Source: Clostridiaceae bacterium (GTDB lineage Bacteria; Bacillota; Clostridia; Saccharofermentanales; Saccharofermentanaceae). Taken from it: a stretch of 46,594 bases of DNA. Made by a program: the position numbers and the translations under genes. This document shows positions 36,210 to 38,471 of the stretch, in pieces (the first letter of the stretch is position 1; every line of letters starts with the position of its first letter). Location of the stretch: contig DUPM01000161.1 in assembly GCA_012838315.1 (NCBI GenBank), positions 1 to 46,594 of the forward strand. The letters are read 5' to 3'. The notes under the pieces were generated by a model. That model saw only the letters and a program-made list of their open reading frames with translations, was not told where the DNA came from and did no database searches.

Positions 36210-36237
36210 TTGACATATGGTGCTAGGGTGCTATAAT
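36210..36237 (+). promoter_or_regulatory. Strong promoter of the structured RNA candidate
   Basis: Perfect TTGACA (36210-36215) and TATAAT (36232-36237) with 16 bases between. It is among the best promoters in the window and has no coding gene downstream on its strand until 38544, so it must serve a non-coding transcript starting near 36244. Confidence 0.85.
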
Positions 36238-36243
36238 TAAGAC

Positions 36244-36690
36244 AAGCTCCAGGGAATACTAGAGAACACCAAACTCTAGAAGGGGTGCCGCCACTACACT
36301 ATACGATGATGGCCTTTGAATCGGAGATTACGTCAAGATGACGAGCCGGAGTAGAAGAAGTGGAAAGTGAATGGCGATTGACGGGACGCGAAGGCGGACA
36401 CAAGTCGCAAGCAGAACGGATGAGTCAAGATCTGAAGGATAGTTCGAGAAGGGTGAAAGCCAATGATCGGGAAGTCCAAGGGTCGGAAGAGATGAAGGTT
36501 GAAGACGAGAGTCCCGACTGAAGTTTCGGAATCAGAAGGATGGAACGGCAAGGGCATATAGCTCAACACCTAGTAAATCCATCAAGATACGGCTCACGAG
36601 TTAGGTTAAGAGATTCGCAGATAATAAAGGGCAACCGGAAAGAATTGGTAAGTTTGAAGAGGTTCGCTGGAGCTCATTTTTATCTCTCCT
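36244..36690 (+). ncRNA. Long structured RNA candidate, family not recognised
   Basis: About 440 nt with no supportable open frame, purine-rich, following a perfect promoter. Its ends pair: AGCTCCAG (36245-36252) with CTGGAGCT (36667-36674), followed directly by T-rich sequence. Inside are hairpins CTAGAG/CTCTAG (36259-36279), CGTCA-AGA-TGACG (36331-36343), TCGGGA/TCCCGA (36467-36517) and ACCTA/TAGGT (36568-36606). I compared it by eye with known long RNAs: it lacks the GAGGAAAGUCC block of RNase P, a tmRNA tag or tRNA-like end, and a 6S-like rod. A large rare RNA family (for example ROOL, raiA or another ornate type) is possible but I cannot claim any. It lies between yjbQ and hpt. Confidence 0.6.
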
Positions 36691-36705
36691 TTTGTTCTGT
36701 TTTTC

Positions 36706-36743
36706 AAAGAAGCGACCTCACGAAAGTGAACGGTCGCTTCTTT
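36706..36743. terminator. Strong hairpin after the RNA, between it and convergent hpt
   Basis: AAAGAAGCGACC (36706-36717) pairs with GGTCGCTTCTTT (36732-36743); inside, TCAC and GTGA close a GAAA tetraloop, with AC bulged. It should stop the RNA transcript read through from the T-rich stretch at 36676-36704, and may also end hpt. Confidence 0.7.
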
Positions 36744-36794
36744 GATTCATGTTTTATCGCTCGACAGATGTGAATTCAAATATATTCCGTGATT

Positions 36795-37343
36795 CTAGTC
36801 GTCGTTCTTCGTGCGCGGCTTTTCTAACTCAGCAATGTAGGGGAGATTGCGCCATTTTTCATCGATATCCATACCGTATCCGACGAGCCAAGACCTACTT
36901 ATTTCAAAACCATAGTATGAAATAGGCACGTTTATGAGTAGTCGATCAGGGTTGTATAGAAGCGAGCAAACACCGACGGAAAGAGGCTTTCGCGCCTCGA
37001 GGTTCTGAATAAGATAGGCTGTTGTTAGGCCTGTGCGAATGATGTCTTCTACAACCAATACATGCTTCCCGGTAATGTTCAGATCAAGATCCTTCGTAAT
37101 CCTTACTATTCCGGTTTGACTGGTTGTATCCGGGATGCTACCGATGGCTATCATATCAATTCCGACTGGCAAATCAATTTGGCGCGTTAAGTCGGAAAAG
37201 AAGTACATGGATCCCTTAAGTACTGATACTAAAACCAATTCTTTACCTGAGTACTCCTGCGTAATTTGTTTGCCAATCTCAGCGGTCCGATTCGCAATTT
37301 GTTCCTCGCTGAATAGAATGCGTTTAATGTGAAGATCTTTCAT
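36795..37343 (-). CDS. hpt: Hypoxanthine phosphoribosyltransferase-like protein with altered catalytic motif
   Basis: A 182-residue protein of the purine salvage family that would make IMP or GMP from base and PRPP. It has VLVSVLKGSMYFFSDL, the acidic PRPP loop and the C-terminal base-binding VGYGMDIDEKWRNLPYI. The PRPP motif, usually VEDIIDTG, reads VVEDIIRTG: Glu99 and Asp100 are kept but the Asp that acts as general base is Arg103 (codon CGC). The rest is normal, so this may be a changed enzyme or a regulator. The ATG has AAAGG about 12 bases upstream. It lies 39 bases after the kinase-fusion gene on the same strand. Confidence 0.88.
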   Translation of the reverse strand: MKDLHIKRILFSEEQIANRTAEIGKQITQEYSGKELVLVSVLKGSMYFFSDLTRQIDLPVGIDMIAIGSIPDTTSQTGIVRITKDLDLNITGKHVLVVEDIIRTGLTTAYLIQNLEARKPLSVGVCSLLYNPDRLLINVPISYYGFEISRSWLVGYGMDIDEKWRNLPYIAELEKPRTKNDD

Positions 37344-37382: not shown

Positions 37383-38342
37383 TTATGCGTCATCATTGGT
37401 CGCAGTATCGCTTCCAGCCATTCTGAAACGCTCAATTAATGACATGAAATCTTTTTTATAAACAATTCGTATATTGGTGCCGGGATATAATTCTCGAACC
37501 TTTTTTAGTTTACGATTTTTGGCAGTGACATATTTCTGATTCATCGTTGTCAGTTCAAGATACGTATCGAAATTTGGCAAATAGAAATCCGGGCTGAAGG
37601 CCATGGTCACATTGCCCTCAGCATCCCACTCGACCGGAAAAGTTTTCGGCTCATACTTCCAGTCGATGTGATACATGTCGAGAACTTTTGCAAACTCAGC
37701 TTCAGAGGGATTTTTAAAATCGGTAAACACGGACTGATGATCAATTGCTTCTTGGGCCATGCTCTCTTGGCTGAGTCTTATTTTAACAGCGTGAGATTCT
37801 GATAATGCAAGAATTGCTGCGACGCACTCGTCGACATCGGATTTTGCTGTATTGAGAATAAGATGATACAGGGAATCATCTGTGACATCTGCATTATACA
37901 CAGCTGAGACAAACCGTTTGTGCTTTTTGTCTGCTGTTGCCAATATCTTTGTTGCCTCTTGGTCGGAAACTTTATACTGCCTTCGGATTCGAGCAATTCT
38001 CTCAGACTCAGGAGCAATGATTCTGACGTGAATGGCATCTGCGTAATCGGAGAAAATGACTTGCGAGCCGAATCCCTTCAAAATATAAGACTTATTAGAG
38101 GCCATTTGCATTAGCTCATTTTCCAAATATGCCTTATACTGACCAATATGTTGATTCTCAGTTAAAAAAAACTTTGCACTTTCGTTGAGTAAATGCTTTT
38201 CTCGAACGTCTGTGACCTTTTCGAAAAAACGATGAATTAACTCGTTTCGCGTGATTAATTCGGCGTCGGTTCTGCTGGACAGGGCCTGTGCAATCTCGTC
38301 ACCAAGGCTACCCATTTGACGAGAAATTGTGATTATTGACAA
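37383..38342 (-). CDS. Cytidylate kinase-like protein fused to a PD-(D/E)xK nuclease-like domain
   Basis: A 319-residue protein. Residues 1-185 look like the cytidylate kinase-like family: SIITISRQMGSLGDEIAQAL, then YILKGFGSQVIF, HVRIIAPESERIARIRRQY and an Asp-rich end. Residues about 208-300 differ: EAEFAKVLDMYHIDWKYEP, then SPDFYLPNFDTYLELT and a Lys-rich helix NQKYVTAKNRKLKK, a pattern resembling restriction-endonuclease-fold domains (PDF and ELT in place of PD...ExK). The last catalytic Lys is not clear, so nuclease activity is uncertain. No ATG is available: the TTG at 38342 has GGGGGAG 6 bases upstream; a TTG at 38396 lacks one. Co-transcribed with hpt. Confidence 0.72.
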   Translation of the reverse strand: MSIITISRQMGSLGDEIAQALSSRTDAELITRNELIHRFFEKVTDVREKHLLNESAKFFLTENQHIGQYKAYLENELMQMASNKSYILKGFGSQVIFSDYADAIHVRIIAPESERIARIRRQYKVSDQEATKILATADKKHKRFVSAVYNADVTDDSLYHLILNTAKSDVDECVAAILALSESHAVKIRLSQESMAQEAIDHQSVFTDFKNPSEAEFAKVLDMYHIDWKYEPKTFPVEWDAEGNVTMAFSPDFYLPNFDTYLELTTMNQKYVTAKNRKLKKVRELYPGTNIRIVYKKDFMSLIERFRMAGSDTATNDDA

Positions 38343-38471
38343 TAAATTCTCCCCCTTTGGGTGAGCCCTTCGAAAAAGAACTTCCCTAAATAACAATTCT
38401 CATATATAGAAAATTATATCATAATTGCAAGATGCGATAATATCCAATAAATGAAGCTTTATCCGATTCTA

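Follow-up and report, generated by a model that had tools for sequence, protein, structure and literature searches.

The stretch of DNA analysed here (46,594 nt, referred to below as the window) comes from a clostridial genome of 2.1 Mb in 163 contigs, belonging to an order that we take to be the Saccharofermentanales of GTDB. The locus of interest comprises yjbQ on the minus strand, an RNA element on the plus strand and, convergent with the latter, hpt followed by a kinase-like gene, both on the minus strand; an initial sequence-only reading had placed an RNA of unrecognised family between yjbQ and hpt, and its observation was confirmed in all parts. The element is preceded by a promoter of the sigma-70/sigma-A type (36210–36237, plus strand) consisting of TTGACA (36210–36215), a 16-nt spacer and TATAAT (36232–36237), which matches the consensus at 12 of 12 positions, as that reading had stated, and in addition carries TG before the -10 box. 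The body of the putative non-coding RNA (36245–36674, plus strand, about 430 nt) is closed by a terminal helix, P1, has homologues with the same ends within and beyond the order and showed no match in Rfam. Directly 3' of P1 lies a U-rich tract (36675–36684, core 36677–36681, plus strand) which, on the basis of T frequency in 58 homologues, is the probable 3' end or termination site, and this is followed by a strong GAAA-loop hairpin (36704–36745, plus strand) which, judged from fold and sequence, would serve as a back-up terminator, probably bidirectional and common to the convergent hpt. Both the T-rich sequence and the GAAA-capped hairpin had been pointed out beforehand, as part of a single RNA of about 440 nt; an RNA gene does lie there, but its body ends at 36674 and the terminator hairpin is a separate feature.

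The extent of the transcript was inferred from the homologues. In all 58 non-redundant copies a -10-like box ended 6 or 7 nt ahead of the first P1 base (7 nt in the window copy, counted to 36245), and T accounted for 66–83% of the bases at positions 2–7 after P1. Given the fixed spacing to P1 and the T-rich positions after it, the first P1 base is very probably the start of the primary transcript and the U tract its end. High expression is inferred from the promoter alone, in the absence of RNA-seq data. The element has a purine fraction of 0.65 and contains only short, unconserved open reading frames, none of them credible, which bears out its earlier description as a purine-rich stretch without a coding frame. 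The fold of 36243–36745 has a minimum free energy of -150 kcal/mol, which is lower than that of dinucleotide shuffles (z -2.7). That this is a stand-alone structured RNA gene is regarded as near certain.

P1 is an 8-bp helix formed by AGCUCCAG (36245–36252) and CUGGAGCU (36667–36674), the self-pairing ends that had been noticed at the outset. Inside it, G36253 stands opposite G36666 and GAA (36254–36256) pairs with UUC; the order after P1, namely G opposite G, GAA/UUC and then UAC, is conserved. The 5' element AGCUCCAGGGAAUAC (36245–36259, plus strand), comprising the P1 5' strand, G36253 and GAA, consisted mostly of invariant positions in 16 diverse copies and is also backed by compensatory P1 variants, and the 3' element GGUUCGCUGGAGCU (36661–36674, plus strand), comprising the P1 3' strand and the inner UUC, is conserved among homologues. 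P1 variants collected without a pairing requirement included GUUCCAG/CUGGAAC, GCUUCAG/CUGAAGC, GCUCCAAG/GUUGGAGC and GCUCUAG/CUAGAGC. The junction helix Pa is formed on the plus strand by GUGCC (36285–36289), immediately 5' of a conserved GCC, and GGCAA (36630–36634), immediately 3' of a conserved AAAG (36626–36629); its pattern in the family is NNNCC before GCC and GGNNN after AAAG, with two-sided changes in four of five pairs. The hairpin P3/P4 (GCGAUU-GACGGGA-P4-GACAC-AAGUCGC, 36374–36408, plus strand; family pattern GYGAUU...AAGUCRC) showed two-sided changes in both helices. So did helix P2 (CCAC/GUGG, 36291–36363, plus strand; family pattern CCNNN/NNNGG), which has a clade-specific loop and for which the evidence is weaker: its strands were partly picked by pairing and its loops trimmed by hand, which biases the P2 counts towards pairing. 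The MAFFT alignment used was the one with trimmed P2 loops, as untrimmed loops gave misregistration. A further helix, P5 (GCGAAN/NUUCGC), was read by eye among the conserved parts, and the rest of the RNA is variable and purine-rich (57–67%), with total lengths of about 245–625 nt. Comparison of the copies suggests a multi-branch core (Pa, P2, P5 and P3/P4) that has been conserved, accompanied by a fast-evolving purine-rich domain.

Covariation was counted as two-sided changes relative to shuffles and to controls with a slid partner, not with R-scape. P1 and Pa together comprise 16 pairs, 8 of which had two-sided changes; for P2–P4 the figure was 10 of 15. None of 500 shuffles reached the covariation score, and the covariation was lost, with far lower scores, once the partner was slid by one to three columns. 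The copies in the P1/Pa pair table had been prefiltered on P1 pairing, so that P1 percentages lean towards pairing. By compensatory changes in conserved helices, the element meets the test for membership of a structured RNA family.

This family did not correspond to any known one. A cmscan of the window against Rfam 15 at gathering thresholds returned nothing except a tRNA, a scan of the element at E values up to 10 gave only chance matches (short hairpins or eukaryotic models), and eight diverse homologous loci scanned at E up to 5 matched no family, so that the label "unrecognised" given to the RNA before any database search has held. The raiA/ModT, OLE, ROOL and GOLLD models likewise had no match to the element (E up to 10) or to the eight loci (E up to 5). 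Three housekeeping RNAs had been set aside by eye at the start and could be rejected on firmer grounds. The genome carries a type A RNase P RNA on contig C36 (290.5 bits) and a tmRNA on contig C18 (165 bits), neither model matching at the element, and no 6S RNA (RF00013) was found at the locus. As each of these RNAs is encoded elsewhere in the genome, the element is none of them. The 6S-like match itself is full-length (G000:C93:6441-6631, 36 bits), falls below the Rfam cut-off and is apparently the divergent 6S RNA of this genome. Searches of the open-licence literature turned up neither this RNA nor the fusion protein encoded beside it.

A purine-rich RNA with many GGA triplets in the GC-richer members of the family recalls a protein sponge, either for CsrA through GGA or as an anti-Shine-Dalgarno decoy. 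The criterion for a CsrB/RsmZ-type sponge, which was GGA enrichment only and left loop context out, was not met: GGA occurred 415 times against 391 in dinucleotide shuffles (z 1.7), and AT-rich members have few GGA. The Shine-Dalgarno-like motifs AGGAG and GGAGG were depleted against dinucleotide shuffles (z -3.1 and -3.8, respectively). The lack of GGA enrichment and the depletion of these motifs speak against a decoy for CsrA or the ribosome and are consistent with an untranslated RNA, and a sponge is considered very improbable.

The decisive test of the RNA observation was homology. Searches with blastn gave matches in 26 of 58 relatives, and a pattern of promoter plus 5' element scanned over 84,980 species genomes gave 34 genome hits, about 29 of which had both ends together where the contig allowed; in these approximately 29 clostridial MAGs, GGUUCGCUGGAGC was present 244–601 nt downstream of the 5' element, in one case with a single change. 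One hit was to a Mageeibacillus MAG, a genus placed by NCBI in the Oscillospiraceae. Hits in Rickettsiales, Heimdallarchaeota, Agaribacillus and Prevotellaceae all lacked the 3' partner and were discarded as chance matches. Other hits to the 5' pattern, such as those in G540, G313 and G444, were also set aside, as they resembled coding sequence or had no 3' partner. A phage or mobile origin was likewise rejected, since the 34 viral-contig matches to the 15-mer were due to chance, with the 3' partner in none of them. A covariance model of the 5' domain matched in 92 of 188 genomes of the host's order, to which exact patterns add more. Outside the order, before any protein-led search and among the class-sample loci read, both ends were found only in G198 and G343 by pattern and in G277 by model.

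Homologues thus occur throughout the host's order and in several other clostridial families, with ends that hardly vary and compensatory changes in several helices, and the RNA is widespread in uncultured clostridia from gut, rumen and digester. Across most of the order the RNA runs convergently towards hpt and the gene behind this. Copies at unrelated loci, far from hpt, were present in several genera. In one genus (g2) a paralogous copy follows not hpt but a conserved membrane-protein gene (MxxIIGGFLMALADSVPGVSGG...; L039, L042, L045 and L058). Tandem copies about 500–700 bp apart, with diverged interiors and near-identical ends, were also observed (L025/L131 in G039, L024/L041 in G042 and L142 in G179), and in one RNA copy the interior is filled by a (GATCAAAA)n repeat up to the contig end (L024 from 2194 and L041 from 4645). 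On this comparative evidence, there is very little doubt that the RNA family is real and new.

The hpt gene (36795–37343, minus strand) encodes a hypoxanthine phosphoribosyltransferase (TIGR01203, 171.5 bits, above the cut-off) and is a neighbour and possible third member of the system. The gene behind it (37383–38396, minus strand) encodes a fusion of a cytidylate-kinase-like domain (PF13189, residues 21–184) with a PD-(D/E)XK-like C-terminal domain, and is the proposed partner of the RNA, also on the grounds of co-occurrence. The kinase domain is related to the crystal structures 3hdt and 3fdi (Z about 22), and a fold search with the whole fusion protein reported this domain only. The N-terminus carries GSLGDE in place of the canonical Walker A lysine. 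For the C-terminal domain, weak matches to Phage_endo_I and DUF790 were obtained, and its structural model (pLDDT 84) matched Bax1 (Z 7.5, 3.1 Å over 86 residues), I-Bth0305I (7.1), VRR_NUC (6.7) and Vsr (5.8). It is the better conserved half of the protein, with a mean column identity of 0.79 versus 0.53, and its conserved residues include E232, D270, E281-x-T283, K293 and K296. The fold and the invariant D270 and E281 satisfy the expectation of a PD-(D/E)XK core with conserved acidic residues, but the catalytic lysine of E-x-K is missing, T283 occupying its position; the invariant K293 and K296 might act as substitutes. The PD-(D/E)XK fold is therefore claimed from the model, whereas nuclease activity is not, being uncertain because E-x-T stands where the classical motif has E-x-K.

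The same domain was found in Thermomicrobium roseum, where it forms the N-terminus of a 333-aa protein annotated as Hpt (L299:3944-4945) and precedes a phosphoribosyltransferase domain; over 98 residues it is 52% identical to the C-terminal domain of the fusion protein. A search for the RNA 5' pattern near this gene gave no match, so the domain is linked to Hpt in a further phylum as well, but with no RNA detected beside it. The T. roseum protein was the sole match to the fusion protein in the plasmid collection (1 of 72,556 plasmid records), and the fusion protein had no match in 50,697 phage records. This distribution bears on a possible type III toxin-antitoxin-like pair, in which the RNA would bind and silence a PD-(D/E)XK nuclease. 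Such a pair could account for an RNA gene adjoining a nuclease-fold gene, and conserved ends with a variable interior are compatible with co-evolving inhibition. However, inheritance in the order is mostly vertical with fixed synteny to a housekeeping gene, phage records yielded nothing and plasmid records only the Hpt-fused domain, and PADLOC matches were no more than weak, which leaves this reading improbable.

The association of the RNA with the fusion protein was examined across the host's order, where 117 genomes had both, 42 neither, 20 the protein only and 9 the RNA only; by genus, the corresponding numbers were 20, 9, 1 and 0 (Fisher 5e-18 by genome and 7e-7 by genus). These statistics were not corrected for phylogeny, and for part of the genomes the 5' element by itself was taken as presence of the RNA. 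In 89 of the 117 genomes the RNA lay within 6 kb of the protein gene, on opposite strands in 88 of these 89; the remaining 28 have both without such proximity, mostly on different contigs. Of the 291 genomes in the class sample no more than 15 encode the fusion protein; six of these lie outside the order, and all six have the RNA beside the kinase-hpt genes. In three of the six (G198, G277 and G343) the RNA had been found by a search independent of the protein, and in the other three (G328, G330 and G379) it was predicted from the protein and then found beside the kinase gene. In G328 and G330 it lies a few hundred bases from the kinase gene and has a compensated P1 (GCUCCAA/UUGGAGC and ACUCCAG/CUGGAGU, respectively), in a search that required P1 complementarity. 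In G379 the RNA stands at the start of a contig, and the first bases of this contig are also those at the end of the contig with the kinase gene. The two G379 contigs, C38 and C82, have 23 nt of the kinase-nuclease gene in common (L255 end/L256 start) and are hence neighbours.

In five of the six genomes outside the order the RNA lies upstream of the kinase-hpt genes in a divergent arrangement, and in G198, as in the host's order, its place is downstream of hpt. That the side has changed and the linkage has been kept is hard to explain if a neighbourhood was simply inherited. The same arrangement tells against a cis element, that is, an antisense or 3'-UTR structure controlling or terminating the convergent hpt. 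The convergence with hpt seen across most of the order and a common terminator region would suit such an element, but in genomes outside the order the RNA and the kinase-hpt genes usually diverge, its own promoter-like sequence is present throughout the homologues and some copies are far from hpt, so that this explanation has hardly any likelihood left.

A more serious alternative is that the RNA is an abundant trans-acting molecule with a general regulatory or housekeeping role, comparable to ModT/raiA or OLE, and that the kinase-nuclease protein is merely a linked neighbour. The strong stand-alone promoter and the P1-closed architecture would be expected of such an RNA, extra copies occur at loci without the protein gene, and one genome that is 99% complete (G140) has the RNA without the protein. 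Adjacent genes can moreover be gained or lost together. A relaxed search around the kinase-nuclease gene of protein-only genomes recovered two more RNAs (L304 and L312), but for most of the genomes inspected in this way none came up within 6 kb of that gene. A general role alone does not explain the joint absence of RNA and protein in nine genera, their joint retention in 28 genomes without close linkage or the survival of linkage through a change of side; it is considered unlikely, though still to be reckoned with. Partnership of the RNA with the fusion protein, read from genomic distribution, is well supported but circumstantial, and on balance probable.

With somewhat less assurance, and with no expression or binding data, we favour a trans-acting RNA of a new family that would form the RNA component of a complex with the fusion protein and perhaps Hpt. 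Sequence and comparative evidence indicate that transcription from the stand-alone gene starts at the base of P1 and that the RNA folds into the P1-closed structure and ends at the U-rich tract after P1. The near-invariant P1, with its internal G opposite G, is inferred to be a protein-docking element through which the RNA may assemble with the fusion protein, and perhaps with Hpt, into a ribonucleoprotein. It is plausible that either protein binds RNA, given that the phosphoribosyltransferase PyrR does so and that the RNA-binding RAP domains are PD-(D/E)XK-like. In such a complex, nucleotide binding by the CMP-kinase-like domain and Hpt may be coupled to an activity of the C-terminal domain, either as a nuclease or in binding nucleic acids, on which the RNA would act as a scaffold or brake. 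A new class of bacterial ribonucleoprotein, made of a large P1-closed RNA, a CMP-kinase-like/PD-(D/E)XK protein and Hpt, in which purine or pyrimidine nucleotide status would act through an RNA cofactor on a domain with nuclease or RNA-binding function, is only a tentative possibility, and any exact mechanism is as tentative.

Large structured bacterial RNAs beyond the few known families are rare and most come without a functional clue. This one comes with a concrete, testable partner, indicated by co-occurrence, by linkage that survives rearrangement and by the fusion of the same domain to Hpt elsewhere; if the partnership is true, enzymes of nucleotide salvage would be tied to an RNA-dependent protein of nuclease fold. 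Among known proteins, the predicted fold of the C-terminal domain is that of the PD-(D/E)XK domains of Bax1/DUF790, Vsr and VRR_NUC, from which it differs in being fused to a CMP-kinase-like domain or Hpt and in its E-x-T, and the Z scores are middling. Among known RNAs, the present element resembles RNase P RNA, tmRNA and 6S RNA in having paired ends, in its structured and presumably abundant nature and in its variable peripheral parts. With the raiA motif RNA/ModT (RF03072), reported in difficile (PMC11706538), it shares a clostridial host, structure, sigma-A promotion and a probable action in trans. It has no RF03072 match, and it is strongly linked to hpt and the kinase-nuclease gene, whereas gene synteny was judged a poor indicator of ModT function by the authors of that work (PMC11706538). 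OLE RNA (RF01071) is also large, structured and clostridial and binds at least six protein partners (PMC12286853), but the present RNA differs in its gene partner and lacks an Rfam match. ROOL and GOLLD are similarly large, ornate RNAs of several hundred nucleotides, and GOLLD, which is similar to ROOL, is described as phage or prophage associated (PMC12286853); here, by contrast, the 5' element appears in viral contigs by chance only, never with its 3' partner, and no Rfam family was matched. Large trans-acting structured RNAs are as such already known, and what is new is this RNA family and its association with a protein.
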